This document shows positions 37,746 through 57,787 of a DNA stretch of 64,000 nt, in pieces. Each line of letters opens with the position of its first letter. Within the stretch, counting starts at the first letter, position 1. The notes under the pieces were generated by a model. That model was given only the letters and a program-made list of their open reading frames with translations. It had not been told where the DNA came from and searched no databases. This DNA is from an uncultured Bradyrhizobium sp. (GTDB taxonomy: Bacteria > Pseudomonadota > Alphaproteobacteria > Rhizobiales > Xanthobacteraceae): NCBI RefSeq assembly GCF_947648125.1, contig NZ_CANSMR010000014.1, forward strand, positions 62,001-126,000, written 5' to 3'. The translations under genes and the position numbers were made by a program.

Positions 37746-39299
37746 CTAGCTGGCCCGGCTCGCCTTGTCGTTTGCGGCAGCCGGCGGCACTTCGTCTGGC
37801 TGGATGAGCGTCACCGACGCCGCGGCCGCCGATGCCGCCTTCGATTGAGCCGCAGCTTGCGTCGTCAGCTCGACGATCTCGGCCTCGACCGGAGGCAGGG
37901 CTTCGATCGCGCGCAAGGCCGCCCGGAGGTGCTCGATCATCTCGTAGGACTCGTCCTGCGTGAGCACACGCCGGCACGCGGTCAGGCCGAACTCGAGCAG
38001 GCCCGCATAGCTGTGCACCGTGATGTTCAGCGCGCTGCCGTGATACGGGATCGAGACCGGGAAATAATGCACCATCCGTGCGCCGGCCATGTAGAGATTC
38101 TGCCCCGGTCCCGGCACATTGGAGATCAGTACGTTGCCGGCTGCCGGCATGCGGCTGGCGAGGTTGGAGCGGCCAAGCAGTGAGGCGAGCCCGGTCATCA
38201 GCCACGGCGAACCTGTGATCGGCACATCGACACCGAGCACCGGCTTGAGTTCGCGCACGACCGCCTTGGCCGCCTCGGATGACGCGTGGATCGCCTTGAA
38301 GCGGGTTGGCAGGTCATCGATGTCGGTCGCCAGGTCGACGCGTACCGCCGAGACCTGGTTGTTCATCGCCTTGTCGCCTTCGGCGCGCAGGCTAACCGGT
38401 ACCATCGCGATCAGGGCTTCCTTGGGCAGCAGACCGCGCTCGGCGAGGAAGCGTTGCAGCGCGATGCTGCACATCGCCATGACAATGGTGTTGACGGTAC
38501 CACCGACACGTTTGCCCAGGACCTTGATGTCGGCGAGCGGCAACGACATCGTGCTGTAGGAGCGCTGATTGGTGATGGAGTCGTTGAACACCGTCTTCGG
38601 GGCCAACCCGAGGCTGAGCGAGCGCTCCCCCTTCTGCGACCGTTGGCTGGCCATCACGGTTGCAGCCGTGCCGAGCGCCTTGGCCGCTGTCGGCAGGAGT
38701 TCCGCGAGCTTGCGATATTGCTGGGCCGCGTTGTTGGCTGCCGCCTGCAATAGCTCGGTCACGCCGAGCTGGTATTGCGCGGCGGCGCGCTTGCGCCGTG
38801 GCGGCGGCACCTCGCGCATCTTGGGCGAGACATCATAGAGTACCTTGGCGAGTTCGACACCGGCCTTGCCGTCGACGCCGCTGTGATGCGCCTTGGTGTA
38901 GAACGCGACCTGGCCGTTCTCGAGGCCATCGATGACATACATCTCCCACAGCGGACGGCTGCGGTCGAGCAGCGAGGCGTGCAATCGCGCGACGAGTTGC
39001 TCGAGCTGTGCCATGGTGCCTGGCCGCCGCAAGGTGACGGTCCGCACGTGGTAGTCGAGCTCGATATCATCGTCCTCGATCCAGACCGGCTCCGCGAGCT
39101 GGAACGGCATCTGCGCCAGTTTGCGGTTCAGCAATGCCGAGAGATGGAGACGCTTGCCGAGCATCTCCTTGACATCCTCGTAGTAGTCGCCCTGATAACC
39201 CTCGGGGAGATCGAAGATCATCAGGCTGCCGACATGCATCGGCGTTTCCGGCGTTTCGAGATGCAGGAACGATGCATCCATGCTGCTGAGTTGATCCAT
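37746..39299 (-). CDS. Wax-ester synthase / diacylglycerol acyltransferase
   Basis: A 517-residue WS/DGAT enzyme. The catalytic HHxxxDG motif is HHSGVDG at 138-144. The opening MDQLSSMDASFLHLETPETP is standard, as is NVLISNVPGPGQNLYMAGA in the C-terminal domain. It esterifies fatty acyl-CoA with an alcohol or diacylglycerol to make neutral storage lipid at the inner membrane. The ATG at 39299 has GGGAGGGAAG upstream. The acyl-CoA ligase 135 bp upstream would supply its substrate. Confidence 0.92.
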   Translation of the reverse strand: MDQLSSMDASFLHLETPETPMHVGSLMIFDLPEGYQGDYYEDVKEMLGKRLHLSALLNRKLAQMPFQLAEPVWIEDDDIELDYHVRTVTLRRPGTMAQLEQLVARLHASLLDRSRPLWEMYVIDGLENGQVAFYTKAHHSGVDGKAGVELAKVLYDVSPKMREVPPPRRKRAAAQYQLGVTELLQAAANNAAQQYRKLAELLPTAAKALGTAATVMASQRSQKGERSLSLGLAPKTVFNDSITNQRSYSTMSLPLADIKVLGKRVGGTVNTIVMAMCSIALQRFLAERGLLPKEALIAMVPVSLRAEGDKAMNNQVSAVRVDLATDIDDLPTRFKAIHASSEAAKAVVRELKPVLGVDVPITGSPWLMTGLASLLGRSNLASRMPAAGNVLISNVPGPGQNLYMAGARMVHYFPVSIPYHGSALNITVHSYAGLLEFGLTACRRVLTQDESYEMIEHLRAALRAIEALPPVEAEIVELTTQAAAQSKAASAAAASVTLIQPDEVPPAAANDKASRAS

Positions 39300-39434
39300 T
39301 CTTCCCTCCCATGACATTGTGACGGCGATTGCCGTCTTGATGACCGTACGCCGATATCTCGCGCGTCACGGTCATTGCATTACGGCCGGGCTGACAGCTC
39401 TGCGCCGCTGCCGATCCGGTTCACGCAGGCGATC

Positions 39435-41144
39435 TCAGGCCTGCGCCCGGGCCGCGCGTTCCTCCTCGTCGTACAGCTCCTTCTTCGAAAGCTTGCCGAC
39501 CGCGGTCTTCGGCAGTTCGGCGCGGATTTCGAGCGCCTGCACCATCTCGTGCTTGCCGAGCTTGTCCTTCAGGAACGCCTGCAGCTCTTCGAGCTTGAAC
39601 GGCTTGGCATCCGCCTTCAGCTTGATGAAGGCCTTCGGCGACTGGCCGCGATACTCGTCGCGGATGCCGATCACGGCGACCTCCTCGACCGCCGGATATT
39701 TGTAGATCGCCTCTTCGAGGACGCGCGGATACACGTTGTAACCGCTGCACAGCAGCATGTCCTTGGTGCGGTCCACGATGAAGATGAAGCCATCCTCATC
39801 CATGTAGCCGACGTCGCCCGTGCGCAGGTAGCCGTCCGCGGTTGTCACCTCGGCAGTGGCGTCCGGCTTGTTCCAGTAGCCCTTCATCACGTTCGGGCCC
39901 TTGATGCAGATCTCTCCGCGCTCGCCGAGCGGAACATATCCGCTGCTGTCGTCGACGTTGAGGAACTTGATGACGATGCCGGGCATCGGCATGCCGCAGG
40001 AGCCGGCCTTGCGCATGGCGCCATGCTGCGCCGGCGTGTAGGTGCCGCTCGGCGAGGTCTCGGTCATGCCCCAGCCTTCGCTCAGATTGCAGCCTGTGAT
40101 CGAGGCGAATTGTTGCGCCACCTCGAGCGGCAACGGCGCGCCGCCTGATCCGCAATATTTCAGCGCGCGCAGGCTGTGCTTTGGCGTCTCCGGATGGTTG
40201 ATAAGCGCGGTGAACATGGTCGGCACCCCGCAGAAGACGCTAACCGACTTCGCCGAGATTTCCTCGAGCGCGGCTTTCGGATCGAACCGGACGTGTTGGA
40301 TGATCTCCGCGCCCATCAGGACGCCGAACAGCACGTTCACGGAAAGCGCGTAGATGTGGAACGGTGGCAAGACAGCGAGGAAGCGCTCCTGCCCATCGAC
40401 CAGCACCGGCGGCGAGCCGGCCGTCGTCGCCCGGTACTGCTGGCACGCGCTGGTCAGATTGGCGTGGGTGAGCATCGCCCCCTTCGGCAGCCCTGTCGTC
40501 CCGCCGGTGTATTGCAGCACGGCGATGGTCTCGCGCGGATTGTCGATCGGATAGGCCTGGTAGGCACCATCATTGTGGGTCAGCTGGCCGAAGCTGATGT
40601 GGTGATCATCCCAGGCGACTTCGCTCAGCTGCTTGGCCGCCTTCATCTCGTTGACGACGGTGTCGGGGTCGGCCGTGATCTCGCCAAGCGAACCGACCAC
40701 CAGCTTCTTCAACCTTGTCTTGCCCAGCATCGCCGCCATCTGCGGATAGAGCGAAACCATGTCGAGCGTGATCAGGATATCGGTCTTGCTGTCCTCGATC
40801 TTGTGTTCGAGCACCTTGGCGGCGTCCAGCGGCGAGTAATTGACCGCCGTGCCGCCTGCCTTGAGGATGCCGAAAAACGAGATGATGTAGTGCGGCGTGT
40901 TGGGCAGATAGAGGCCGACATGAACGCCCGGCTTCACGCCGAGGAGCTGCAGGCCCTTGGCCACGCGATCGGTGAGCCGCCCGAGCTCGGCATAGGTGAT
41001 CCGCTTGCCCATGAAATCGATCGCGGGACGATCCGGCCATTTGGCAACGGCATCGCCCAATATCTTCTGCACGGGTCCGGCAGCGATCTCGATGTCCCAG
41101 CGCACCCCGTCGGGATAGGATCGGATCCAGGGCATGTCGTTCAT
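39435..41144 (-). CDS. Long-chain fatty-acid-CoA ligase
   Basis: A 569-residue AMP-forming acyl-CoA synthetase (FadD-like). The P-loop signature YTGGTTGLPKGAMLTH is near residue 211. GWGMTETSP and YLRTGDVGYMDEDGFIFIVDR are present, with the catalytic Lys in PKTAVGKLSKK near the end. It activates fatty acids with ATP, releasing AMP and PPi. The ATG at 41144 has AAGGGAGAG upstream. It probably feeds the DGAT and storage genes around it. Confidence 0.9.
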   Translation of the reverse strand: MNDMPWIRSYPDGVRWDIEIAAGPVQKILGDAVAKWPDRPAIDFMGKRITYAELGRLTDRVAKGLQLLGVKPGVHVGLYLPNTPHYIISFFGILKAGGTAVNYSPLDAAKVLEHKIEDSKTDILITLDMVSLYPQMAAMLGKTRLKKLVVGSLGEITADPDTVVNEMKAAKQLSEVAWDDHHISFGQLTHNDGAYQAYPIDNPRETIAVLQYTGGTTGLPKGAMLTHANLTSACQQYRATTAGSPPVLVDGQERFLAVLPPFHIYALSVNVLFGVLMGAEIIQHVRFDPKAALEEISAKSVSVFCGVPTMFTALINHPETPKHSLRALKYCGSGGAPLPLEVAQQFASITGCNLSEGWGMTETSPSGTYTPAQHGAMRKAGSCGMPMPGIVIKFLNVDDSSGYVPLGERGEICIKGPNVMKGYWNKPDATAEVTTADGYLRTGDVGYMDEDGFIFIVDRTKDMLLCSGYNVYPRVLEEAIYKYPAVEEVAVIGIRDEYRGQSPKAFIKLKADAKPFKLEELQAFLKDKLGKHEMVQALEIRAELPKTAVGKLSKKELYDEEERAARAQA

Positions 41145-41173
41145 GAGATCTCTCCCTTCTATGGTCTCTCGGA

Positions 41174-41941
41174 TCAGATGGCGGTCACGCCGCCGTCGAC
41201 CGCGATGGTCTGGCCGGTGATGAATGCGCAGGCATCGGAGGCGAGCAGCGCGGCGACACCCTTGAGATCTTCGGGGCCGCCCTCGCGATTCATCGGCGCC
41301 ATATGCGCGGTTGCGCTCTGGTCTAGCTGCGCGGTCATCTTGGTCGGGAAATAGCCCGGCGCGATCGCGTTGACGTTGATGCCGAGCGGCGCCCATTCAT
41401 TGGCGAGCGTGCGGGTCAGGTTGACGACCGCGCCCTTGCTCGTGTTGTAGGCCAGCGTCGGCGTGCCTTCCGGATAGCAGCCGGTAAGGCCCTGGATCGA
41501 CGCGATGTTGATCACCTTGCCGCTCCGCCGCGGCACCATGCAGCGGCGGCCGACCTCCTGGGTGGCGATGAAGATCGCAGTTACATTCAGGTTGATCACC
41601 TTGTTCCAGCCGTCGAGCGTATGCTCGATCGTGGCGGCACCCCAGGAAGTACCGGCATTGTTGACGAGGATGTCGACCGGGCCCAGCGCGGCCACGACCT
41701 GCTCGATCATCGGCGCGATTGTCTCCAGCCTGCCCATGTCGCAAACCACCGGAAGCGCCTCGATGCCAAGCCCTTTGAGGTGAGCAGCCGCGACATCAAG
41801 CTCATCCCGCTTGCGCGCGGTGATCGCGACCTTGGCGCCGAGTTCGCCCAGCACCTCGGCGATCTGAAGACCGAGACCTCGCGATCCGCCCGTGACGAGC
41901 GCGACGCGACCTGTCAAGTCCTGCAACTTGGCCAGACTCAT
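41174..41941 (-). CDS. Short-chain dehydrogenase/reductase (FabG-like)
   Basis: A 255-residue SDR. TGGSRGLG (17-24), NNAGTSW, and the Ser/Tyr/Lys site IASIQGLTG...YNTSKGA are present. The C-terminal FITGQTIAVDGGVTAI is typical of FabG/3-oxoacyl reductases. It lies 29 bp upstream of the acyl-CoA ligase and 38 bp after phasin, so the three are likely one transcript. Confidence 0.87.
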   Translation of the reverse strand: MSLAKLQDLTGRVALVTGGSRGLGLQIAEVLGELGAKVAITARKRDELDVAAAHLKGLGIEALPVVCDMGRLETIAPMIEQVVAALGPVDILVNNAGTSWGAATIEHTLDGWNKVINLNVTAIFIATQEVGRRCMVPRRSGKVINIASIQGLTGCYPEGTPTLAYNTSKGAVVNLTRTLANEWAPLGINVNAIAPGYFPTKMTAQLDQSATAHMAPMNREGGPEDLKGVAALLASDACAFITGQTIAVDGGVTAI

Positions 41942-41979: not shown

Positions 41980-42420
41980 CTACTTCGGCTGCAACAGCTT
42001 CTGAAGGTTCGTAAGGTTCTCCTGCATGCGCTCCTGCATGACCTTCCAGGCGTTGTTGCGCGCCTGCGCCTCCAGCTGCGACAGCTCGCGGAAATCCGCG
42101 ACCGCCTTCTCCACCTGCTGCCTGGCGGTCTCCGTCTGCTTCGTCATGGCTTCACCGCTCGCGAAGCCCTTCATCGCCGCCTGCCACTGCGCGAGCGTCT
42201 CCTGCAGGATCTCGTTGCGACGGCTGACCAGCGCCTGGATGCCTTCGTAGGCCTGCCGGTTCGCCTCCACCAAGGCTTCCATGTCCTTGCGCTGCCACTC
42301 GACCAACGCGGCGACATCGAACCCGGGCAGCGCGAACTTCTCGGCCATTTTCTTCAGATCCCCGAGCCACGGCATCGCGCCCGTGCCACCTGCGTCGGAT
42401 TGCCTGTCATCGGTTCCCAT
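41980..42420 (-). CDS. Phasin-family protein
   Basis: A 146-residue helical protein. The phasin pattern FDVAALVEWQRKDMEALVEANRQAYEGIQ is followed by a long amphipathic helix (KQTETARQQVEKAVADFRELSQLEAQ). Phasins coat PHA or neutral-lipid granules. Position next to DGAT and ligase genes suggests a granule-coating role here. Confidence 0.85.
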   Translation of the reverse strand: MGTDDRQSDAGGTGAMPWLGDLKKMAEKFALPGFDVAALVEWQRKDMEALVEANRQAYEGIQALVSRRNEILQETLAQWQAAMKGFASGEAMTKQTETARQQVEKAVADFRELSQLEAQARNNAWKVMQERMQENLTNLQKLLQPK

Positions 42421-42480: not shown

Positions 42481-43290
42481 TCAGGCCGCCGGCCAGCGCG
42501 GCCGAAACAGGGTGAGGCTGTCATCGGCTCGATCCGGATCGGGGTACACCATGCCGCGGAGACCGCTGCGGTCGAACGGCGACCATTCATTCTCCCCCAG
42601 CGCGAGGCGGTCCGCGATGGCGTACAGCACGGCCGGATTGTGTCCGAGCCCGCAATGACTGCCTTCGACTTCGATGTTCTGTGTCCGCTCAGCATGCTGC
42701 TCGCGGCAACCCCACCACGAGACGATGCCGTCGGTGCGTGAGTAGATCGCCGTGCTCGGGACCGGCGGCGGCAACTTCATCATGTCCCTGTCGGGCCAGT
42801 CGTCGACCTGGCGCTCGCTCAGAATCTCGTAGAGACGCCAGGCATTGCTTGCCTTCGGCTCGTTGGCGAACGGGCTGCCGAGCGTGATCACCTGGCGGAC
42901 CAGATCCGGTGCGCGCCGTGCGATCTCGCGCGCAAAGACGCCGCCAAGGCTCCAGCCGATCAAGCTGACCTTGCGATTGTATCGCTCGGCGAGCTCGGCC
43001 AGCCTTGCGTCCATGGCAGCCTCGACGCCGGGACGCGGTCCGCGATTGGGTCCAAGCTTCCAGCCATGGACCGCGTAGCCCTGCGCCTTCAGGTAGGCGC
43101 GCAGCGGTCGGGTCGAGATATCGCTGGCGGAGAGCCCCGGCAAGACGAGGACCGGATGTCCGTCGCCGCGCGGCGCGCGGCGAAGCAGCGGGTAGCTTGC
43201 GAAAAACGCCTGCAGCTCCCAGATCCCGCGCACTTCGAGCGCGAGCAGCAATTGCGACGGCGGCGCAGAGCGGTCGACGACCGTATTCAT
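42481..43290 (-). CDS. Alpha/beta hydrolase (lipase-like), paralogue of the one at 33671
   Basis: A 269-residue hydrolase. PVLVLPGLSASDIST, the nucleophile S114 in GWSLGG, ITLGSPF and IYSRTDGIVSWW align block by block with the hydrolase at 33671-34447. It is the first gene of the phasin-SDR-ligase group, 60 bp before phasin. A copy of the two-block motif lies 154 bp upstream. It probably cleaves a lipid or polyester. Confidence 0.82.
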   Translation of the reverse strand: MNTVVDRSAPPSQLLLALEVRGIWELQAFFASYPLLRRAPRGDGHPVLVLPGLSASDISTRPLRAYLKAQGYAVHGWKLGPNRGPRPGVEAAMDARLAELAERYNRKVSLIGWSLGGVFAREIARRAPDLVRQVITLGSPFANEPKASNAWRLYEILSERQVDDWPDRDMMKLPPPVPSTAIYSRTDGIVSWWGCREQHAERTQNIEVEGSHCGLGHNPAVLYAIADRLALGENEWSPFDRSGLRGMVYPDPDRADDSLTLFRPRWPAA

Positions 43291-43443
43291 GTCAGAATGT
43301 CCCCTCCCGGATCACGCAGCGCGTCCCGCACGATCCGACATTTTATGATTACTGCCTTGCTCCGCGAACGGCTCCATGCGGACCCGATCGCGCAACCGCG
43401 TATTTTCTTGGTCTCAAAACGCTATCGAGCGCGTCGGACCCGT

Positions 43444-43484
43444 AAAAGGTGCAATTGGCCCGCTTGACCGGTTAGTTTGGGACA
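43444..43484 (-). promoter_or_regulatory. Two-block motif, copy 1 (weakest)
   Basis: On the plus strand AAGGTGCAATTG, 12 bp, then GGTTAGTTTGGGACA. It overlaps the 3' end of the AraC gene at 43472 and lies 154 bp upstream of the hydrolase start at 43290, in the orientation seen at the other copies. Confidence 0.4.
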
Positions 43485-44554
43485 TCCGCCAATGAATCTT
43501 GCGCGCCTGCTGCGATGCTTGATGCTCGGCCATCGCGGAAGTCCGAAGGGCTCTTACCGGTCCAGCGGGCAAAAGCGTGGCGGAAGTTCGCCGCGTCGCT
43601 GTAGTCAAGCCGCGCTGCGATCTCGTCATTGGTCATTTGCGTGTAGCGCAGATAACCGACCGCGAGCTGCATGCGGACCTCGGAGACGATCTGCCGATAG
43701 GTTTTCCGCTGCAGTTGCAGCCTGCGGCGGAACGTCCGCGGATGAATCATGAGCTCCGCCGCCATTGCCTCGATACTGGGGAAGCGGCCGGGATGCTCGA
43801 CGAGCCGTCGCCGGATGTCAGCGGCGAGGCCGTCGTCCCGCGCGACATGATCGAAAAGCTGATCATAGATTCGGCCTGCCATCGCCCTGGTCATCTCGTT
43901 GGGGCAAACCGCCGGATGGTCGATCCAGACCGCGTCGAATTCCAGCGCGTTCTTGCACTGGCCGAACTCGACTGGACACTGGAAGATGTGATCGTATGTC
44001 CCAGCATACGGAGGCGGTGCATAGGCGGCGCTCAGCTTCGAGAACCGGAACGAGCTGCCATAGACGTCACGGCTCAGCGTCTGATAGGTCGCAAAGGCGA
44101 ACTCGAGCGCGAACCGATAGACGTCATCGGCCGGATCGCGCGAGAGCAAGGGCTCGAGCAGGCAGCTCACAGTATTGCCCTTGCGGGTGAAGTCGATGTC
44201 GGCGACCGCTCCAAGGATGCGACCGTATTTGGCCGCGAAGTCGATGACTTCGGGTCGAGTCGGGCTGCTCAGCATGGCATAGCCATACATGCCGTAAGCC
44301 ATGACATGCATTCGTTCTCCGGCGCGAAACGCGATCGCCGGATCCCGCGACAACCGCATCGCATTGCGAAAGACCGTCTCGACCTGCCGATAGGAGACGC
44401 GTACCGATGGATCTCTCAGATCGGCACTCGTCAAATTGGCCCCGCCGAGCGCGCGCGACGCGGAGATGCCGTCCTCGGCCAGGACGTCCACGACCGCAGC
44501 GATCCGTTGCGGCGAATAGCGACGCTGCAAGAGATTTGGTGACGGGTGATACAC
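43472..44554 (-). CDS. AraC-family regulator, paralogue 1
   Basis: A 360-residue regulator of the OruR-like group. The N-terminal ligand domain (about 15-220, with RVSYRQVETVFRNAMRLSRDP and AYGMYGYAMLSS) precedes two C-terminal helix-turn-helix units (about 250-345: IEAMAAELMIHPRTFRRRL and DEIAARLDYSDAANFRHAFARWTG). The GTG at 44554 is chosen because GAGGAAG lies 5 bp before it; the frame stays open to 44773 but covers the motif repeats. It is homologous throughout to the AraC genes at 44849 and 49586. Confidence 0.83.
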   Translation of the reverse strand: MYHPSPNLLQRRYSPQRIAAVVDVLAEDGISASRALGGANLTSADLRDPSVRVSYRQVETVFRNAMRLSRDPAIAFRAGERMHVMAYGMYGYAMLSSPTRPEVIDFAAKYGRILGAVADIDFTRKGNTVSCLLEPLLSRDPADDVYRFALEFAFATYQTLSRDVYGSSFRFSKLSAAYAPPPYAGTYDHIFQCPVEFGQCKNALEFDAVWIDHPAVCPNEMTRAMAGRIYDQLFDHVARDDGLAADIRRRLVEHPGRFPSIEAMAAELMIHPRTFRRRLQLQRKTYRQIVSEVRMQLAVGYLRYTQMTNDEIAARLDYSDAANFRHAFARWTGKSPSDFRDGRASSIAAGAQDSLADVPN

Positions 44555-44630
44555 GAGCTTCCTCGTCCGCCTTCCACGCCTGTTTCCGGTCCCGCAATCC
44601 GGGAGGCTAGTAAGCCGGACCAGCCAGCGG

Positions 44631-44669
44631 AAGGTTCGATTGATCGCGTTTGGAGGTGAGTTCCGGACA
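44631..44669 (-). promoter_or_regulatory. Two-block motif, copy 2
   Basis: Plus strand: AAGGTTCGATTG, 12 bp, GGTGAGTTCCGGACA. It lies 77 bp upstream of the AraC start at 44554. Confidence 0.6.
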
Positions 44670-44773
44670 AGACCGGCCAAAAGAAAGACCGCCGAGGGAG
44701 GCGGTCCAGGTTGGGAGAACGCGATCGCGAGCGCAACGACGGCGCCGAGCTTACGCGCGCTTCGGCCGCACAA

Positions 44774-44812
44774 AAGGTTCGATTGAACCAGTTTGCCGGT
44801 GAACTACGGACA
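44774..44812 (-). promoter_or_regulatory. Two-block motif, copy 3
   Basis: Plus strand: AAGGTTCGATTG, 12 bp, GGTGAACTACGGACA. It is 143 bp from copy 2, same orientation, in the 294-bp gap between the two tandem AraC genes. Similarity between copies 2 and 3 continues for several bases past the motif (CCGGC). Confidence 0.6.
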
Positions 44813-44848
44813 GGGCCGGCGAAGCCGCCCCCTAGGCTGTCGCGGGGT

Positions 44849-45913
44849 CTAAAGACCCTCGTCGCCCCGGAATTCAGATGGATTCCTGCCGGTCCAGCGC
44901 GAAAAGGCGTGGCGGAAGTTGGCCGCGTCGCTGTAGCCGAGGCGGCTCGCGATCTCCTCATTGGTCATGCGCGTCTTGCGCAGATACTCGATCGCGAGCC
45001 GCATGCGCACCTCTGCGAGCAGGCCGCGATATGAAGTTCCCTCCGCCTCGAGCCTGCGCCGCAGTGCGCGGGGATAGATGTCGAGCTGCTCGGCGATCGC
45101 CTCGATACTTGGATAGCTGCCCGGCTGCTCGATCAGTATCCGACGGATATCGGCGGCAACGCCGCCGGCGCGGTTCACCTCGCCGAGGATCTCCTCGCAC
45201 ATCTCCCGCGCCATGGCGTGGGTACGCGGATTTGCCAGCGCCCGCGGGCCGTCATTGCGTACGTATTCGTATCCGCAATGATGTTGATTGAACAGGACCG
45301 GGCATCCAAAAAGACCGCGATACGCCGCGGTGGACGGCGGCGGTGCATAGTCGAGCAGCACGCGCGAGAACCCGAAGCCCTGACCGGAGCGGTCGCGAAT
45401 GGTCGTCAGATGCGCGGCCAGTGCGAACTCCACCGCGAAGCGATGCACACTCTCGGTCGGATTCGGCCAGTGCATGGGCTGGAACGTCGCCACCACCGTC
45501 TCGCCATCATAAGAGAGGCCGAAATCGCAGAACGGACCCACCACGCGGATATATCGCGCAGCGAAGTCGCGGGCCTCGGCGTGCGTTGCGCTGCTCAGCA
45601 GCGCGTATCCGTACATGCCATAGGCGGTAACATGCATTCGCGCTCCGGAGCGCAGCGCGATGGCGGCGTCCCTTGCCAGCCGCAGCGCATTGCGGATCAC
45701 CGTGTCGAGCTGCCGATAGGATATTCGCGTCGTATGGGACTCGAGCTGGCCGATCACAAGCCCGGTGCCGTCGAGAACCTCAGATGGATCAATACCCTGC
45801 TCGCGAAGCTCGGCCGCGATGGCCGCGATCGAATGCGGCGGGAATATTCGCTGCGCGAAGCTGGGTTGCATTCGGCTCGGCGATTGGCTTGCGTGCGAGT
45901 CTTGCCTAGTCAT
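44849..45913 (-). CDS. AraC-family regulator, paralogue 2
   Basis: A 354-residue regulator with the same architecture as paralogue 1: ligand domain with TTRISYRQLDTVIRNALRLARD and AYGMYGYALLSSATH, then HTH units IEAIAEQLDIYPRALRRRLEAEG and NEEIASRLGYSDAANFRHAFSRWTG. The ATG at 45913 is the likely start, with 45874 as an alternative. It is divergent from acetoacetate decarboxylase (46184), with a motif copy in the shared intergenic region, so it is a good candidate regulator of that gene. Confidence 0.83.
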   Translation of the reverse strand: MTRQDSHASQSPSRMQPSFAQRIFPPHSIAAIAAELREQGIDPSEVLDGTGLVIGQLESHTTRISYRQLDTVIRNALRLARDAAIALRSGARMHVTAYGMYGYALLSSATHAEARDFAARYIRVVGPFCDFGLSYDGETVVATFQPMHWPNPTESVHRFAVEFALAAHLTTIRDRSGQGFGFSRVLLDYAPPPSTAAYRGLFGCPVLFNQHHCGYEYVRNDGPRALANPRTHAMAREMCEEILGEVNRAGGVAADIRRILIEQPGSYPSIEAIAEQLDIYPRALRRRLEAEGTSYRGLLAEVRMRLAIEYLRKTRMTNEEIASRLGYSDAANFRHAFSRWTGRNPSEFRGDEGL

Positions 45914-46040
45914 TCCGATCGCATGTCCCTCGCATTCCGCGCGTTCCTGCTCCACGATTGATTTACCGCTCCAAACGTAAGCCCGATCACGTACGCGACG
46001 CAATGATCGGGTGCCCGCGCGCTGCACGCGCCGCACTCCG

Positions 46041-46079
46041 CGTCCGGAAGTCACCCGGTCGGCGGTCCAATCGCACCTT
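46041..46079 (+). promoter_or_regulatory. Two-block motif, copy 4, upstream of acetoacetate decarboxylase
   Basis: Read on the minus strand: AAGGTGCGATTG, 12 bp, GGTGACTTCCGGACG. The orientation is reversed relative to copies 1-3, and so is the downstream gene: the start of adc is 105 bp away at 46184. Relative to transcription all of these copies therefore point the same way. Confidence 0.6.
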
Positions 46080-46183
46080 TCTCCGCCTCGCGGGATCGCT
46101 AGGCTCGCGATGCCTTGCTCGACAACCGGCACGCAGCCGGAGGGCCGCACGGACCACGGCAAGCGCTATCAAGGGAGGAGCGG

Positions 46184-46942
46184 ATGCGACGGGAGGACAT
46201 TCTCAAGCAGCTGACGACGCCAATCGGCTCCCCGGCATTTCCCCGCGGACCGTTTCGCTTCAACAACCGCGAATACCTCAACATCCTGTATCGCACCGAC
46301 ATCGAGGCATTGCGCGCCGTCGTTCCCGAGCCGCTGGAGATCGACGATCCGCTGGTCCGCTGGGAAATCATGCGGATGCCCGACACCTCTGGTCTCGGCG
46401 ACTACACCGAATGCGGCCAGGCCGTCCAGGTGCGCTTTGGCGACGAAAAGGGTGAGTACCTTCACGCGATGTACCTCGATAGCCTGCCGGCGCTGGCGTC
46501 CGGCCGCGAAATCAGCGGCTATCCCAAGGTGATCGGCAAGCCGAAGCTCTACATCGATTCCGATACACTGGTCGGCACAATGGATTACGGCAGCCTGCGC
46601 GTGGCCACCGCGACGATGGGTTACAAGCACCGCGCGTTGGATCTCGAAAAAGCAAAGGCCGAGATCTGCGTACCGACCTTCATGCTGAAGATCCTGTGGA
46701 CCTATGACAGTCCGAAGCCGGCGGGCGAGCCGCGCATCTGCGAGCTGCTGCGCTCCGAGATCACCGACATCACCGTCAAGGGCGCCTGGACCGGCCCGGC
46801 CCGGCTGGAGCTGTTCGCCCACGCATTGGCCCCGATGGCCGATTTTCCGGTGCGCGAGATCGTCGCGTGCAGCCACATCATGACCGACTTGACGCTGTCC
46901 CGCGCCAAGCGTTGCCACAACTATCTCGATCAGCCGCGGTAA
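46184..46942 (+). CDS. adc: Acetoacetate decarboxylase
   Basis: A 252-residue ADC-family protein, converting acetoacetate to acetone and CO2 by a Schiff-base mechanism. K115 in SGYPKVIGKPK matches the catalytic Lys115 of the clostridial enzyme; the neighbouring Lys116 of that enzyme is Val here. FNNREYLNILYRTDIEAL and the PEPL block are family features. The ATG at 46184 has AAGGGAGGAG upstream. It is followed at 21 bp by a 3-hydroxyacyl-CoA dehydrogenase on the same strand. Confidence 0.88.
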   Translation: MRREDILKQLTTPIGSPAFPRGPFRFNNREYLNILYRTDIEALRAVVPEPLEIDDPLVRWEIMRMPDTSGLGDYTECGQAVQVRFGDEKGEYLHAMYLDSLPALASGREISGYPKVIGKPKLYIDSDTLVGTMDYGSLRVATATMGYKHRALDLEKAKAEICVPTFMLKILWTYDSPKPAGEPRICELLRSEITDITVKGAWTGPARLELFAHALAPMADFPVREIVACSHIMTDLTLSRAKRCHNYLDQPR

Positions 46943-46963
46943 GCGTACACGTCGGAGAAAGCC

Positions 46964-47938
46964 ATGCCATCATCCGCAGATCGCGCCGCGGCGCTCAACC
47001 GCTATCGTAATGTGTGCGTCATAGGGGCCGGCGTCATCGGCTCCTCCTGGGCGGCGCTGTTTCTCGCGCACGGACTCAATGTCGTGATCAACGATCCGCA
47101 GCCCGACATCGAGGCCACGACCAAGGACGCCCTGATCAAGATCGCGCCGACATTGCTGAAGCTCGGCCTGCCGCATGAGGGGTTGGAGCGCAACCTGCGC
47201 TTCGAGCCGGATCTCGCGCGCGCCGTCGCCGGCGCCGACCTCGTGCAGGAGAACGGCCCGGAGAAACCCGAATGGAAACAGCAGCTCTGGGCGCGGATCG
47301 AGGCAGCGGTGCCGAGGCATGCGTTGCTGTTGTCCTCGAGCTCGGCACGGCCGGCCACCGAGCAGGCGCGGGAGATGAAGGATGCAAGCCGGCTGCTCGT
47401 TGGCCATCCCTTCAACCCGCCGCACTTGATCCCGCTCGTCGAGGTCGTTCCCGGCGAACACACCGATCTGCAGGCGACCGCCGACGCCGTGGCGTTCTAC
47501 GAGGCGCTCGGCAAGGTGCCGCGCGTGCTCAAAAAGGAAATTCAGGGCTTTGTCGCCAACCGGCTCCAGCGCGCGATCATGCGCGAGGCTTGCTATCTCG
47601 TGCAGGAAGGCGTTGTCACGGTCGACGAGTTGGACGACATCGTCACCAGCTCGATCGGGTTGCGCTGGGCCGTGAACGGGCCGTTCAGCTCGTTCCACAT
47701 GGGCGGTGGACCGAAGGGGCTCGAATCGTTCTTCCAGCACCTCGGCAAGAACATGGCCGCGTCGTTCAAGATGATTCCGCAGGTCGATCTCGACGAGGCG
47801 CTACAGCGCAGGATCATCGACCAGGCCGCGGTATCTTTCGGCAGGACACCGATCCCGCGGATGGAGCGTGAACGCGACGACACGCAGGTGGCGCTGTTGC
47901 ACGTGCTGGCGGCACGCGACGGCAGGGATCGCACATAG
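46964..47938 (+). CDS. 3-hydroxyacyl-CoA dehydrogenase, NAD-binding (carnitine-dehydrogenase/lambda-crystallin type)
   Basis: A 324-residue NAD-dependent dehydrogenase. GAGVIGSSWA (21-30) binds NAD, and QENGPEKPEWKQQLWARIEA and GHPFNPPHLIPLVEVV (about 148-163) are typical. The C-terminal helical domain follows. Single-domain relatives oxidise L-carnitine, L-gulonate or 3-hydroxybutyryl-CoA. Position after adc suggests a 3-hydroxy to 3-oxo acid step feeding the decarboxylase; this is inference. Confidence 0.85.
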   Translation: MPSSADRAAALNRYRNVCVIGAGVIGSSWAALFLAHGLNVVINDPQPDIEATTKDALIKIAPTLLKLGLPHEGLERNLRFEPDLARAVAGADLVQENGPEKPEWKQQLWARIEAAVPRHALLLSSSSARPATEQAREMKDASRLLVGHPFNPPHLIPLVEVVPGEHTDLQATADAVAFYEALGKVPRVLKKEIQGFVANRLQRAIMREACYLVQEGVVTVDELDDIVTSSIGLRWAVNGPFSSFHMGGGPKGLESFFQHLGKNMAASFKMIPQVDLDEALQRRIIDQAAVSFGRTPIPRMERERDDTQVALLHVLAARDGRDRT

Positions 47939-48048
47939 TCGGCTCGGCCTTAGGGCTGCGCGCGCTCGCAGACACAGGCGGTCGCTCTTCTTTCGGAATC
48001 CAGACGAGCCTGGGGTGATCCTCGGGCATCAAGCGGAGACGGACTCAC

Positions 48049-49248
48049 ATGAGCATCTTCGAAGGTTTGAAGGTCATCGACTGCGGCAGCTTCATCGCCG
48101 CGCCAACCGCCGCGACACTGTTGGGAGACTTCGGCGCCGACGTGATCAAGATCGAACCGCCCGGCGCCGGCGACGCGTTCCGTCAGGTGCCGAAACTTCC
48201 GGGCATGCCGAGATCCGACCACCCCTATGGCTGGTTGCTCGATAACCGCAACAAGCGCGGCCTTGCGCTCGATCTATCGAAGCCTGAGGGCCAGGCGGTT
48301 CTGCATCGCCTGGCCTCCACCGCCGATGTATTCATCACCAATTATCCGCTCGCCGTCCGCAGGAAACTCGCGATCAGCTACGAGCGGCTTGCCGCAGCGA
48401 ATGATCGGCTGATCTACGCATCCTTCACCGGCTATGGCGAGACCGGCGACGAGGCAGGAAAGCCGGGCTTCGATGTCACTGCCTACTGGGCTCGTTCAGG
48501 CCTGATGGACATGGTGCGGAGCGACGCCAGCACGCCGCCGGCGCGGGCGCTCGCCGGCATGGGCGATCACCCGTCGGGCGTTTCGTTGTTCGCGGCCGTT
48601 GCGGTGGCGCTGTATCAGCGCGAGCGCACCGGCCGCGGCACCCAGGTCGGCTCCTCGCTGCTCGCCAACGGCGTCTGGTCGAACGGTATCATGGCGCAGG
48701 CGGCGCTGTGCGGGGCGACGTTCACGCCGCGGCCGCCGCGCGAGAATTTGTTCAATGCGCTCGGCTGCTATTACCGCTGCCGCGACGGCCGCTGGCTGCT
48801 GCTCGCGATCGTCAACGAACAGCGGGACTTTCCGACCGTAGCGAAATGCCTCGGCCTCGACGACCTGCTCACCGAGCCGCGCTTTGCCAAGCAGGCCGAT
48901 CGTTTCGCCCGTTCCGCGGAACTGATCGCTCTGTTCGACGCGGCGTTCGCGACACGGGACCGGGACGAATGGCGGGCCCGCCTCGATGAAGCAGGAATCG
49001 TCTTCGAATGCGTTGCCGAGATGGGCGACCTGTGCACCGACCGGCAAATGCTGTCGGCCGGCGTGCTGGTGCCGTTCGAGAACGACGAGATGCTGACCAT
49101 CGACAGCCCATTCTTTGTCGACGGTGCAACCAAGGTAAAGCCGCGCAAGGCGCCCGCGGTCGGCGAGCACAGCACGCAGATCTTGCGCGAGGCCGGCTAC
49201 GATGACGCGGCCATCACCGGGATGCGCGAAAGCAAGATCCTGGCATGA
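48049..49248 (+). CDS. CaiB/BaiF-type CoA transferase
   Basis: A 399-residue family III CoA transferase. LKVIDCGSFIAAPTAATLLGDFGADVIKIEPP is the N-terminal signature. LDLSKPEGQAVLHRL follows, and the catalytic Asp is expected in KPGFDVTAYWARSG (about residue 142). It moves CoA between carboxylic acids. It lies 110 bp after the dehydrogenase on the same strand, so adc, dehydrogenase and CoA transferase may form one unit. Confidence 0.88.
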   Translation: MSIFEGLKVIDCGSFIAAPTAATLLGDFGADVIKIEPPGAGDAFRQVPKLPGMPRSDHPYGWLLDNRNKRGLALDLSKPEGQAVLHRLASTADVFITNYPLAVRRKLAISYERLAAANDRLIYASFTGYGETGDEAGKPGFDVTAYWARSGLMDMVRSDASTPPARALAGMGDHPSGVSLFAAVAVALYQRERTGRGTQVGSSLLANGVWSNGIMAQAALCGATFTPRPPRENLFNALGCYYRCRDGRWLLLAIVNEQRDFPTVAKCLGLDDLLTEPRFAKQADRFARSAELIALFDAAFATRDRDEWRARLDEAGIVFECVAEMGDLCTDRQMLSAGVLVPFENDEMLTIDSPFFVDGATKVKPRKAPAVGEHSTQILREAGYDDAAITGMRESKILA

Positions 49249-49299
49249 TGCCCTGACCACGAGGCGACGCCTGCCGCCTTCATCGTGCGCATGAGAAAA

Positions 49300-49328
49300 G
49301 GCCGCGCCCTCGGGTGAGGAGCGCGGCC
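49300..49328 (-). terminator. Intrinsic terminator candidate, minus strand
   Basis: GGCCGCGC (49300-49307) and GCGCGGCC (49321-49328) form the stem; on the minus strand TTTTCTC follows. It would end a minus-strand transcript from the AraC gene at 49586 or from within the 337-bp gap 49249-49585. Confidence 0.55.
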
Positions 49329-49498
49329 AGTCTCGAGGCGCCCGAACCGGGGGGCACCACAGCGGCGATGCGGCGCAGCTGGGGTTCGGAGGACGCCCCC
49401 GAGCAGAAACGATCAGCGCCCGACGCGTCCCCTACTCCTTGATCAGCCATCGCGCTTACTGTCGAAGGTCAATCTATGCGTGGAGTTCGACCACGAGG

Positions 49499-49539
49499 AG
49501 GTTCGACGAGGCCGGTTCGGAGGTGACTTATGGACAGCG
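49499..49539 (-). promoter_or_regulatory. Two-block motif, copy 5
   Basis: Plus strand: AGGTTCGACGA, 11-12 bp, GGTGACTTATGGACA. The second block is well kept, the first less so. No annotated gene lies ahead in the matching direction, only the terminator at 49300-49328. Confidence 0.45.
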
Positions 49540-49585
49540 CGCGGTGACGAGCGGCCAAACGCGGCGCGTCATGCCCGCACGGCCT

Positions 49586-50659
49586 TCACATCGGCGAAGA
49601 GACCCGGAAATCGGATGGGCTCTTGCCGGTCCAGCGGATGAAGGCATGCCGGAAGTTGGCGGCGTCGCTATAGCCCAGCCGGTTTGCGATCTCCTCGTTG
49701 GTCATCGCGGTCTTGCGCAGATATTCGATCGCAAGCCGCGTCCGCACCTCGGCGAGCAGCTCACGATACGATGTATCTTCCGCTTCGAGCCTCCGCCGCA
49801 GCGCGCGAGGATGCATCGAAAGCCTCTCGGCGATCGCCTCGATGTTCGGATACCTGCCGGGCTGCTCGATCAGCACCCGCCTGACATCGGCAGCGATCCC
49901 GCCCGCATGATTGACCTCGGACAACACCTGCTCGCACATCTCGCGCGCCATTCCGTGGGTGCGAGAATCCGCCAACGCCACCGGCCCGTCGGCCTGCGAC
50001 AGCTGGTACCTGTACTCGTTGCCGCGCTGGCGAAACAAGACCGGACAGTCAAAGATCACCTGGTAGGCGCGGGCATGCGCCGGTTCGCCATAGGCGAGGG
50101 AAATCTGCGAGAAGCGGAATGACTCGCCCGCCAGGTCCTTCATCGTTGTCAAATGCGACGAAAGGGCGAACTCGGCCGCGAAGCGATGCACGTCCTGCGT
50201 CGGATTCGGCCAATGCAACGGCTCGAACGCACAGACGACCGCCGCGCCGTCATACGAGTATTTCGCATCGCACAGCGGGCCAACGACCCGAAGGTATCGA
50301 TTGGCGAAGGCGCGCGCATCGTCATAGGTCGCGCTGCTCAGCAACGCATATCCGTACATTCCGTGCGCCGTCACCCGCATGCGCTGTCCGGCACGGAGTG
50401 CAACGGTCGGCTCGTTGGACAGCCGCAATGCATTGCGAACCACGATGTCGATCTGCCGGTACGAGATGCGCGTCGTGTGCGCTTCGAGCTGATCCTCGGT
50501 CAAGCCGGTGCCCGCCAGCGCTACGGACGATCGAACCTGTTGCCTGCCGAGCTCGGCAATGATGGCAGCAATCAACTGCGCCGAATACACATGCTGGTCG
50601 AAATCCGGCGGCAATTGGCATTCCGGCACGGCGTCTCGCAGGCGCCTTCCAGCGCTCAT
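49586..50659 (-). CDS. AraC-family regulator, paralogue 3
   Basis: A 357-residue regulator closest to paralogue 2: TTRISYRQIDIVVRNALRLS, AHGMYGYALLSSATY, and HTH units IEAIAERLSMHPRALRRRLEAED and NEEIANRLGYSDAANFRHAFIRWTG. The ATG at 50659 has GGAGGAGGAC upstream. The ligand domain differs enough in its middle part to suggest a different effector. It is convergent with the CoA transferase gene. Confidence 0.83.
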   Translation of the reverse strand: MSAGRRLRDAVPECQLPPDFDQHVYSAQLIAAIIAELGRQQVRSSVALAGTGLTEDQLEAHTTRISYRQIDIVVRNALRLSNEPTVALRAGQRMRVTAHGMYGYALLSSATYDDARAFANRYLRVVGPLCDAKYSYDGAAVVCAFEPLHWPNPTQDVHRFAAEFALSSHLTTMKDLAGESFRFSQISLAYGEPAHARAYQVIFDCPVLFRQRGNEYRYQLSQADGPVALADSRTHGMAREMCEQVLSEVNHAGGIAADVRRVLIEQPGRYPNIEAIAERLSMHPRALRRRLEAEDTSYRELLAEVRTRLAIEYLRKTAMTNEEIANRLGYSDAANFRHAFIRWTGKSPSDFRVSSPM

Positions 50660-50831
50660 GGTCGTCCTCCTCCCTAGGCCTGGAGTCTTGCTCAAATCGA
50701 AATCATTCGCAATGCTGGCGGCAGCCAGCCGGCTTCCCCTATCCCCAGCCTCGGGCAGCGCACGCTCGGGTCGTATCCAAGGATGCCGAATTGGGTCGCG
50801 AGGTGTTTCGTCGATGCCGCCGTGTTTCCGG

Positions 50832-52229
50832 TCAGCATTCCACAACGTTCACCGCGAGCCCGCCCAGCGACGTCTCCTTGTATTTGGACTTCATGTCTTC
50901 GCCGGTCTGCAGCATCGTCTTGATGACGGCATCAAGCGAGACATAGTGCTTGCCGTCGCCACGCAGCGCCATGCGAGCGGCGTTGATGGCCTTGACCGCC
51001 CCCATCGCATTGCGCTCGATGCAAGGGATCTGCACCAGGCCACCGACCGGGTCGCAAGTGAGACCGAGATTGTGCTCCATCCCGATCTCCGCGGCGTTCT
51101 CGACCTGGGCCGGCGCACCGCCGAGCACGGCCGTCAGGCCGCCTGCGGCCATCGAGCAAGCGACGCCGACCTCGCCCTGACAGCCAACTTCCGCGCCGGA
51201 GATCGAGGCATTCGCCTTGTAGAGCATGCCGATCGCAGCCGCGGTGAGCAGGAAGGTAACGACGCCGTCATCGGTCGCGCCCGGACAGAACTTGACGTAG
51301 TAATGCAGTACCGCCGGGATCACGCCGGCGGCGCCGTTGGTCGGCGCGGTCACGATCCGCCCGCGCGCTGCATTCTCCTCGTTCACCGCCATCGCAAAGG
51401 CATTGACCCAATCCATCGCCGCCAGCGGATCGACACTCTCGGTGTCGCTGTTGCGGGCCGACAGTTCGCGATAGAGAGCCGGCGCGCGACGGCGAATGTT
51501 CAGCGGCCCAGGCAGCGGTTCAGCCGCGCCCGCATTGTCGATCCCGAAGCCGCGGTCGACACATTGCTTCATCGTCTCCCAGATCTTCAGGAGACCGGCA
51601 CGGACGTCAGCGTCGGTGCGATGCACGCACTCGTTGGCCAGCACCATGTCGGCGATCGAGCGCCCGCTCGACTGCGCACGCGCGACCAGTTCGGCGCCGG
51701 TGCCGAAAGGATACGGCCAAGCCGGAAGCTCGCCGCCTGCGGCGCCAGCCACGTCGCCCAAGCCACGCTCGATCACGAACCCGCCACCGATCGAGAAGTA
51801 ATAGCGTTCCGCCAGCAGACTGCCGTCGGCCGCGAACGCCAGGAGGCGGATTCCGTTAGGATGTTCCGGCAATGCGCTGTCGGGCTTGAACACGATATCG
51901 CGCCCGCGCCGGAACGGGACCGGGTGAACATTGAGCAGCCGCAATTCGCCGGAGCGCCGGATGTCCGCAAGCTGCGGCGCCACCTGGGCCGGATCGATGG
52001 TATCGGGCTTTTCGCCGAGCAGGCCGAGGATCACGCCGAGATCGGTCGCATGCCCGCGCCCGGTCGCGCCCAGCGAGCCATAGAGGTCGGCGCGGACCTG
52101 CACGGTCTTCGAAAGAAGACCATCGCGCTCGAGCGCGCGGACGAATTGTCCGGCCGCGCGCATTGGCCCCACCGTATGCGAACTCGAGGGGCCGATACCG
52201 ATCTTGAATATGTCGAAGACCGAAAGCAT
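50832..52229 (-). CDS. sdaA: L-serine ammonia-lyase (iron-sulfur, single chain)
   Basis: A 465-residue enzyme splitting serine to pyruvate and ammonia. The beta domain opens with [23 protein letters not shown] and the alpha domain holds the cluster cysteines ([37 protein letters not shown]). The chain ends in a terminal Cys (VNVVEC), the tail residue that folds into the active site in the studied Legionella enzyme. Its ATG overlaps the M20 gene's stop by one base (TGATG), so translation is coupled. Confidence 0.93.
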
Positions 52230-55607: not shown

Positions 55608-55798
55608 GCAGATCGCTCACTCAATCCGAAATCCAGACTTCGCCGCGACCACCTTGCGGGGATCGCAGCGCTTTTTCGGCCTGTCCTGCACGCAGGAGCC
55701 AGATCAGGCAAGCCGAGTGTAGCAATGTCCTAATATAACTCTTGAAACGGCCCGTTTGCACCTTTCCGTCTCGATATGAGCACATAAGCCTGGCGACA

Positions 55799-57412
55799 AT
55801 GACCATGAGCGCTCCCAACGACAACCTCGAACGACCGCTCCATGAAATGCTGCGGAGGCATGCCCGTGAGCGGCCGGAGAAACCGGCCTGCATCTGGTAT
55901 GGCCGCGCCATCACGTTCCTCGAGCTCGACCGTGCGAGTGATGCATTCGCGGCGCGCCTGCAACAGCTCGGCGTCGCCAAAGGCGAGCCGGTCGCACTGT
56001 TCATGAACAATTGTCCGCAATACCTGATGGCGCAATTCGGCATCCAGAAGATCGGCGCCATTGCCTCGCCCTGCGGGGCGCTGAACAAGGAGCACGAGCT
56101 CGCCTACCAGCTCGACGATCTCGGCGCGCGCGTGATCGTCGCGGCCGAACCGCTATTGCCGATCGTAGGTCAGGTCCGCGACAAGACGAAGCTCGAGCAT
56201 GTCTTCGTGGTCCGCTACCCCGACCTGCTGCCCGAGCGGCCACCGATCGGCGTTCCGGACGAACTGCTCGCATCCGGCTCCGAGCCGGACGGTACGGCCG
56301 GCGAAATTGAGGACTTTCTCTCCGTCGCTGCAAGCGGCGCGTCGCCCCGCGATGTCGCGATCGACATGAACGATACCGCGCTGATGATCTACACGTCAGG
56401 CAGCACGGGCCGGCCCAAAGGGGCGATGCTGTCCTATCGCAACGTCATCTTCAAGACGGCCGCGACCGTGAACTGCAACGGGATCGGCACCGATGACGTC
56501 CTGCTCTCGATCGCGCCGCTTTATCATATCGCCGGCATGGTGATGGGCGTGAATGCACCGGTCTACGCCGGCGCGACGTCCGTGCTGCTGTACCGGTTCG
56601 ATCCGCTCGTGACGGCACAGGTGATCGACCGCTATCAGGTAAGCTGGTGGTACAGCGTGGCGCCGATGAACGTCGCGATCACGCAGCTCCCGAACATTTC
56701 CGACTTCGCGCTGAGGAGCCTCCGCGTCAATCCCGTGACCAGTTTCGGCATCGACTGGACCGAAGCGCTTGCCAGACAATGGCAAGCCGTCGCACCGAAC
56801 TGCGAGAGCTTCGAGGCGGCGTACGGGCTGACCGAGACCCACACGGTGGACACCTTCATGCCGCGCACTTCAGTTCGCTGGGGCACCCATGGCAGACCGG
56901 TGCCCGGCAACGAGATCCGGATCGTCGATCCCGACTCCGGCGCAGACAAGCCAGCCGGCGTCCCGGGCGAAATCGTGATCCGCGGCCCGGGCGTATTCAA
57001 AGGCTACCGCAATCGTCCCGACGCGACCGCGGAGGCGCTGCGCAATGGCTGGCTGCACACCGGCGACATGGGCCGCCTCGATGCCGACGGCTATCTGACC
57101 TTCATGGGTCGCTTCAAGGAGATGATCAAGGTCTCCGGCTACAGCGTCTTCCCGGAAGAGGTCGAATCGATTCTGAACAAGCACCCCGACGTGGCGGCGT
57201 CAGCCGTGATCGGCGTGCCCGACGCAACGAAGGGCGAGGTGGTCAAGGCCTTCATCGTCCTGACCCCGCGTGCCGAACTGGACACCGCCCAGCTCGTGGC
57301 GTGGGCGCGCCAGAACATGGCGCCTTACAAGGTGCCGCGCGATGTCAGCTTCGTTACCGAGTTGCCGCGCTCACCGGCCGGCAAGCTGTTGCGGCGGTTG
57401 CTGAAGGACTGA
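55799..57412 (+). CDS. AMP-forming acyl-CoA synthetase (CaiC-like)
   Basis: A 537-residue ligase. The P-loop YTSGSTGRPKGAML is near residue 198; YGLTETHTVD, WLHTGDMGRLDADGYLTFMGR and the terminal catalytic Lys in RSPAGKLLRR are present. It activates a carboxylic acid with ATP. The crotonobetaine/carnitine-CoA ligase group is the closest by pattern, though the substrate is unproven. The ATG at 55799 (or 55805) is used; the longer frame to 55742 has no ribosome site. Confidence 0.87.
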   Translation: MTMSAPNDNLERPLHEMLRRHARERPEKPACIWYGRAITFLELDRASDAFAARLQQLGVAKGEPVALFMNNCPQYLMAQFGIQKIGAIASPCGALNKEHELAYQLDDLGARVIVAAEPLLPIVGQVRDKTKLEHVFVVRYPDLLPERPPIGVPDELLASGSEPDGTAGEIEDFLSVAASGASPRDVAIDMNDTALMIYTSGSTGRPKGAMLSYRNVIFKTAATVNCNGIGTDDVLLSIAPLYHIAGMVMGVNAPVYAGATSVLLYRFDPLVTAQVIDRYQVSWWYSVAPMNVAITQLPNISDFALRSLRVNPVTSFGIDWTEALARQWQAVAPNCESFEAAYGLTETHTVDTFMPRTSVRWGTHGRPVPGNEIRIVDPDSGADKPAGVPGEIVIRGPGVFKGYRNRPDATAEALRNGWLHTGDMGRLDADGYLTFMGRFKEMIKVSGYSVFPEEVESILNKHPDVAASAVIGVPDATKGEVVKAFIVLTPRAELDTAQLVAWARQNMAPYKVPRDVSFVTELPRSPAGKLLRRLLKD

Positions 57413-57592
57413 CGCTGCAGCGAACTTGCCCCGACCGGCCGACGGCGCCAGCCAAAAATCCCGATCGGCCATGTCCCAAAATCACTCCCGATTTGGTCCG
57501 ACAGCACCTTTTCGGGAATCGATGTCCATGTTGGACATGTCGTTTTGGATCCTCGGCGATTCATCGATAAAGAGCAAATTGCAGCCTGCGAC

Positions 57593-57787
57593 ATGTTCAG
57601 TCACGACCACGAATGCTCGGGCATCAAGTACCAGCGATGCATGAAACGGATGATCGAAGCGCTCAGAGAAGAACTGACGCTGCAAGGCATCATCGGTCAG
57701 GGGACCACCACGGATCTGCGGGTAGACATCGTCAGCCTGGCCGAAACCGCACTCATGGCGTGCGATTTCGATAAGGTCGCGGACTGA
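57593..57787 (+). CDS. Possible small protein, unknown
   Basis: A 64-residue ORF (MFSHDHECSGIKYQRCMKRM...) with gene-like third-position GC and predicted helices. It has a weak start context; a TTG at 57545 would lengthen it. It overlaps a minus-strand ORF (57482-57880) that looks less gene-like. The remainder of 57413-57914 is empty. Confidence 0.35.
   Translation: MFSHDHECSGIKYQRCMKRMIEALREELTLQGIIGQGTTTDLRVDIVSLAETALMACDFDKVAD

Follow-up and report, generated by a model that had tools for sequence, protein, structure and literature searches.

A conserved two-block motif, here called the box, recurs around three paralogous AraC-family regulator genes (AraC1, AraC2 and AraC3) in a 64,000-nucleotide stretch of DNA from an uncultured Bradyrhizobium sp. 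(contig NZ_CANSMR010000014.1, positions 62,001 to 126,000, forward strand; the whole stretch is referred to as the window). Judged from sequence, the box is very probably the operator of the AraC1/AraC2/AraC3 clade, through which the local gene set would be activated, such that an AraC operator of known type probably defines a new local regulon. Direct results of computation are the family of sites and its restriction to the cluster, together with its geometry, conservation and joint occurrence with the AraC clade. Oriented toward the genes, the motif reads TGTCCnAAAnTCACC-N12-CAATCGCACCTT, and seven copies are present, all within 14.1 kb:

Box copy 1, 43446..43484, minus strand: faces the genes for an alpha/beta hydrolase, a phasin, a short-chain dehydrogenase/reductase (SDR), acyl-CoA ligase 1 and a wax ester synthase/diacylglycerol acyltransferase (WS/DGAT); overlaps the AraC1 stop; -10-like hexamer at 43424-43419
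Box copy 2, 44631..44669, minus strand: faces AraC1; -10-like hexamer at 44609-44604
Box copy 3, 44774..44812, minus strand: lies past the AraC2 stop, ahead of a terminator-like hairpin, and points toward a predicted RNA of ~65 nt; -10-like hexamer at 44752-44747
Box copy 4, 46041..46079, plus strand: faces the acetoacetate decarboxylase (ADC) operon; -10-like hexamer at 46101-46106
Box copy 5, 49498..49536, minus strand: lies past the AraC3 stop, ahead of a GC hairpin and its T run, and points toward a predicted RNA of ~174 nt; -10-like hexamer at 49476-49471
Box copy 6, 55726..55764, plus strand: lies 35 bp upstream of the acyl-CoA ligase 2 ATG
Box copy 7, 57472..57510, plus strand: 83 bp before the gene of a conserved 64-aa protein

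An earlier sequence-only reading of this DNA had reported five copies. All five were recovered, the count rises to seven with copies 6 and 7, and copies 1 and 5 were moved to the coordinates listed here; the alignment of copy 5 had been off by one, and its spacing is the same 12 bases as in the other copies. The full two-block pattern, allowing up to three mismatches, gave three matches in the window against a mean of 0.00 in 100 shuffles. A single block as the motif was rejected, as block 1 alone (two mismatches) gave 14 matches where 14.1 were expected and block 2 alone (three mismatches) gave 20 against 14.8, a number reached by 4 of 100 shuffles. Each block alone is near chance and the signal is therefore the pair at fixed spacing; a regular-expression search of the window for other block spacings gave nothing useful. 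A matrix built from six window copies scored the seven sites at 27–46 across the 64 kb, with the next best at 13.3, and copy 5, which was outside the training set, scored 27.3.

The motif proved equally restricted in the whole genome (8.57 Mb), where a model derived solely from the sequences of 22 sites returned seven matches, all in the cluster, the next match having an E-value of 3.09. An independent IUPAC pattern with three mismatches also gave seven matches genome-wide and none in a reversed control, and a looser form of the earlier two-block pattern was found at four places, all in the cluster. A whole-genome scan had been named beforehand as the check on whether the motif was scattered at random, and with seven of seven matches inside the cluster it is not.

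The 22 sites used to examine the anatomy of the box comprised seven from the window, ten from a related genome (G138), one each from G176, G194 and G177, and two from a metagenome-assembled genome (MAG) titled Xanthobacteraceae. Most of the information fell in two stretches, the box itself and a hexamer, (T/A)AGCnT, at +22 to +27. The hexamer held 4.3 bits; the best value in a rotation averaged 0.98, and none of 2000 rotations was as good. The spacer, previously described as unrelated between copies, is only partly so, five of its 12 columns (-19, -16, -15, -14 and -12 from the box end) carrying at least 0.6 bits. For the first half-site the best direct-repeat offset among 15–24 was 22, a repeat that includes a common C/A wobble before ACC. 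An inverted-repeat reading of this half-site was rejected, all inverted offsets scoring worse than the direct repeat. The box is thus read, from its sequence, as probably an AraC-type tandem operator of two 15-bp direct half-sites with a 22-bp period. The expectation of two AraC-type half-sites is thereby retained; their equation with the two visible blocks is not, 15-bp direct repeats 22 bp apart reading better. If the hexamer is a -10 element, the box ends at about -34, and the fixed distance between the two suggests an activator overlapping -35.

The same fixed distance would also be expected if the motif were the extended promoter of an alternative sigma factor and not an AraC site at all. 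Constrained sequence extends to about -72, further than would be usual in a sigma promoter, and the direct-repeat structure and a presence that tracks one AraC clade argue against it further, leaving this explanation scarcely credible.

Conservation among close relatives indicates that the box is a selected site. Pairwise identity in 13 close genomes (nine for copy 7) was 96.6% and 97.0% in the two blocks, 88.2% in the spacer and 85.9% in the hexamer, and 64.5% upstream and 68.2–80.5% downstream in the flanks, which are understated by this ungapped comparison. In one genome (G171; L016 16780-16818) copy 2 has an 11-base spacer, one base shorter than the other copies.

These values bear on the proposal that segmental duplication left the boxes behind as relics, AraC paralogues having been copied with their flanks and the boxes sharing no function. 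Copies 1, 3 and 5 each follow closely on the 3' side of an AraC stop and all point the same way, and AraC2 and AraC3 form sister groups in a tree of 23 proteins, as such a history would predict. Against it stand the blocks, more than 96% identical while the flanks fall away, the maintained register of the hexamer, and boxes that precede genes other than AraC genes, namely copies 4, 6 and 7 and several in G138. In that genome a box lies between phaC (polyhydroxyalkanoate (PHA) synthase) and a relocated orthologue of acyl-CoA ligase 2, facing phaC from 317 bp upstream (L025 7911-9650, 9967-10005); another lies beyond the relocated ligase, before what we take to be a ribbon-helix-helix (RHH)-like open reading frame (ORF); a third is 49 bp before a presumed FUSC-like exporter, and a fourth precedes a copy of the 64-aa gene by about 400 bp. 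A further box at an amidohydrolase overlaps the longest ORF reading, so the start of that gene must lie further in. The relic explanation is largely refuted already by these boxes at unlinked promoters and is considered very improbable.

The occurrence of the box in relatives follows that of the AraC clade. A model search of 195 congeneric genomes gave 21 matches at E 0.05, 18 strong and three weak and partial; these three (G063, G127 and G172) were dropped before counting, as was G069, a match with three mismatches from a separate search. Fourteen of the 18 strong genomes carry 6–10 sites and four carry one (G119, G176, G177 and G194). An AraC of the clade (at least 48% identical to AraC2, the next best being 39%) occurs in 15 of the 195 genomes, and boxes were found in all 15, against one strong box each in three of the 180 others. 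One of these three, in G119, is a relic, a deletion having joined an AraC3 remnant to a ligase 1 remnant; here (L106 10001-17123) one box survives, and the 10 kb past that box contain no ligase 2.

A hydrolase orthologue of at least 76% identity is present in 18 genomes, of which 15 have boxes. Genomes that keep the genes without the blocks, which the sequence-only reading had named as a sign against the proposal, therefore exist (G025, G140 and G189); all three also lack the AraC clade, as a regulator–operator pair predicts. Each keeps hydrolase, phasin and ligase 1 together. A close WS/DGAT is present in G025 and G140, G189 having only a 38% WS/DGAT within the 20 kb fetched, and an unrelated AraC (29%) 5 kb away.

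An order-wide scan under stricter filters, with 16 candidates scored per genome and consequently not very sensitive, matched 12 of 397 genomes at E 0.05; matches were strong in G000 and G138 only, the others being partial, with E above 0.01 and no more numerous than chance. The MAG, which was found through its AraC1 (62%), has the order GltS-amidohydrolase-SdaA-AraC2-box-box-AraC1, and its two boxes stand out in an AraC2–AraC1 interval that elsewhere aligns poorly.

All three regulators belong to the AraC/XylS family, with HTH_18 (60–67 bits) and Arabinose_bd (PF12625; 124–142 bits) domains above the cut-offs. Their helix-turn-helix (HTH) segments are nearly identical within the clade, and in the tree the split of AraC1 from AraC2/3 precedes the parting of the MAG and Bradyrhizobium copies.

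Several observations weigh against the box being the operator of this clade. G177 has a good box (L105 10001-10039; E 1e-6) and G176 one box beside a degraded hydrolase, both without a clade AraC, so a box can exist in the absence of the clade; a non-clade AraC in G175 shares much of the HTH segment, which is accordingly not diagnostic. In the model search of the source genome, 150 of the 5152 candidates that passed the pre-filter were scored. Some of the 22 sites are orthologues of one another, so the rows behind the hexamer statistic are not independent; the hexamer is also indistinct at copy 7 and at several G138 and G177 copies. The permutation test for the direct repeat reaches only moderate significance (p 0.011), and the near block is partly palindromic (GGTnCRATYGnACC), which may allow an inverted-repeat reading of it. 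Finally, no consensus sigma-70 promoter was found in 43000–50000, where 1.4 were expected in shuffles.

This last result also fits promoters needing help, and as such it argues against one or more of the clade AraCs repressing the genes and releasing them on a signal. Binding at a box that overlaps the expected -35 could block polymerase. AraC/XylS proteins are, however, mostly activators, a generalization likewise made in the abstract on GliR, which itself activates from a motif overlapping -35 (PMC8151288), and in the excerpted account of SphR the sites are required for sphingosine induction (PMC3900636). Repression is accordingly judged unlikely.

If the box is an activator site, an AraC dimer would bind two tandem 15-bp direct half-sites (TGTCCnAAAnTCACC, 7 bp, CGGtCCAATCGCACC, then TTYY), the near half-site ending at the expected -35 and the -10-like hexamer beginning 22 bp past the box. 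Activation would most likely be by touching RNA polymerase from the site overlapping -35, and the trigger would probably be the binding of a lipid-like signal. The set switched together would comprise the hydrolase-phasin-SDR-ligase-WS/DGAT genes, AraC1, the operon of ADC, a 3-hydroxyacyl-CoA dehydrogenase family protein (3HCDH) and a CoA-transferase, acyl-CoA ligase 2 and the 64-aa protein, and probably two small RNAs. From these data we infer the identity of the binder, activation over repression, the inducer, and a role of the genes in storage-lipid and acetoacetate/acyl-CoA turnover. The shared regulon of the sequence-only reading appears to stand as a local set of lipid and CoA genes, while its link between neutral lipid and acetoacetate derives from gene names. 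The genes concerned are:

AraC1, 43472..44554, minus strand: Arabinose_bd and HTH_18 regulator; start codon inferred
AraC2, 44849..45871, minus strand: Arabinose_bd and HTH_18 regulator
AraC3, 49586..50659, minus strand: Arabinose_bd and HTH_18 regulator; start codon inferred
Alpha/beta hydrolase, 42481..43290, minus strand: first gene behind copy 1
Phasin (Phasin_2), 41980..42420, minus strand
SDR, 41174..41941, minus strand
Acyl-CoA ligase 1, 39435..41279, minus strand: start codon not settled
WS/DGAT, 37746..39317, minus strand
ADC family protein, 46184..46942, plus strand
3HCDH family protein, 46964..47938, plus strand
Class III CoA-transferase, 48049..49248, plus strand
Acyl-CoA ligase 2, 55799..57412, plus strand
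Conserved small protein of 64 aa, 57593..57787, plus strand: no Pfam family above cut-off

At copy 6 the -10-like hexamer is so near the ligase 2 ATG (window 55786-55799) that the mRNA would be nearly leaderless. The 64-aa protein has the conserved core ELTxQGIxGQGTTTDLRVDIVSLAETALM, and the pair of box and 64-aa gene was found again elsewhere in G138 (L024) and in G177 (L105).

A constant orientation toward the next gene, as claimed for copies 1–4, was seen for copies 1, 2 and 4. The assignment of two copies to AraC1 is doubtful, because a conserved terminator-like hairpin separates copy 3 from that gene, and neither copy 3 nor copy 5 faces a protein-coding gene ahead of its terminator-like hairpin. 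These two copies may instead drive conserved, structured and apparently non-coding RNAs rather than the next gene, and such candidate AraC-driven small RNAs may be new here:

Predicted ~65-nt RNA, 44679..44743, minus strand: behind copy 3; 5' end inferred
Terminator-like hairpin and T run, 44686..44707, minus strand: between copy 3 and copy 2
Predicted ~174-nt RNA, 49294..49467, minus strand: behind copy 5; inferred 5' end, with a GC hairpin and T run closing the 3' end

The ~65-nt RNA is 92.7% identical in 13 genomes, compared with 80–82% for AraC third codon positions, and folds better than shuffles (z -2.8; -4.5 in the MAG and -2.5 in G138). Its hairpin is kept in G138 and the MAG, as is an unpaired CUCCC stretch that could mask ribosome-binding sites, and in an alignment of 11 of 15 sequences two of 11 pairs show a change on each side, including one pair in the terminator-like hairpin. 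Behind copy 5, the hexamer is followed in 13 genomes by a predicted RNA of 172–216 nt closing with a GC hairpin and short T run. The last 120 nt of this RNA fold at z -3.56 and reach 86.6% identity where the 5' part has 49.0%, although the former value is only modestly above that of AraC third codon positions. This 120-nt stretch occurs once each in 14 of the 195 genomes, the same 14 that have 6–10 boxes. A coding reading of it was rejected, no frame being kept across 14 sequences.

Other results count against these RNAs. Covariation is slight, with one of 36 pairs for copy 5. A generic terminator scan of 43000–50000 gave three sites against 4.1 in shuffles, which is no evidence by itself, and it lists the copy-3 hairpin but misses that of copy 5 with its short T run. 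The stretches could be mere 3' untranslated regions (UTRs). As to known small-RNA families, Rfam gave five matches in 43000–51000 at E 2.3–3.7; all scored well under the gathering thresholds, and the predicted RNAs were not among the places matched. It is proposed tentatively, with slightly less than even confidence, that the operators in the araC2 and araC3 3' UTRs are promoters of two conserved small RNAs using the mRNA's terminator. The regulators would then induce riboregulators encoded at the 3' ends of their own genes, and lipid storage would be governed by a circuit of protein and RNA together.

The box offers a compact regulon and a precise operator matrix for Arabinose_bd-type AraC proteins. 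If the model is true, phasin, WS/DGAT, acyl-CoA ligases and the ADC operon (with PHA synthase in one relative) share one switch in Bradyrhizobium; should the two RNAs exist, transcription of small RNAs from the 3' ends of the regulator paralogues would be under a local activator belonging to the same set. No publication on the cluster or box was among the literature matches listed, in searches that did not use the motif letters as query; the best 15 of 101 matches on storage regulation in Bradyrhizobium mostly concerned, as far as their listed records go, PhaR or phasins.

Of the known systems compared, QhpR (NF049968) was the best NCBIfam match of all three AraCs (E 2e-42 to 5e-46), yet all three remain below the curated cut-offs, scoring 145–157 of 250 bits for QhpR, 126–147 of 500 for CypR and 98–128 of 570 for GliR. 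The targets of QhpR presumably differ from the genes here. GliR (PA3027; NF050186), matched at E 7e-28 to 7e-37, is another activator of the AraC family, whose targets probably belong to glycerolipid metabolism, with motifs upstream of and overlapping -35; its published motifs, YYGGCGHTDTYSGMC and GGAYAWCGCCG, differ from the box (PMC8151288). VirS-mymA of Mycobacterium tuberculosis likewise places an AraC-family regulator beside a lipid operon and, in the excerpts, stimulation raises virS and the operon alike (PMC9044949, PMC13234193). The likeness lies in this arrangement and response; the system differs in having one regulator and one operon promoter, and in its distant sequence (E 1e-17 to a chain of PDB 8rcx, over the stretch 174–337).

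The closest likeness in layout is to SphR of Pseudomonas aeruginosa, an AraC-family protein whose sites are described in the excerpted text as a pair of 15-bp repeats separated by 7 bp (PMC5150637), with the consensus TGNCCSNNRNNSNCC twice, 6–8 bp apart (PMC3900636). No SphR model was among the NCBIfam matches of AraC1–3, and the likeness rests on operator layout, no SphR sequence having been compared. The first half of the box and its 7-bp spacing fit the consensus, while the second half agrees at six of nine specified positions, a shortfall that belongs with the counterpoints given above. The system described here differs in its storage-lipid/acyl-CoA targets, its three paralogous regulators and its seven sites. 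It shares with SphR, so far as that system is described in the excerpts, the pairing of 15-bp direct repeats across 7 bp, a TGnCC...CC half-site, and few genomic sites lying at lipid genes, which in the case of SphR are those of sphingosine.

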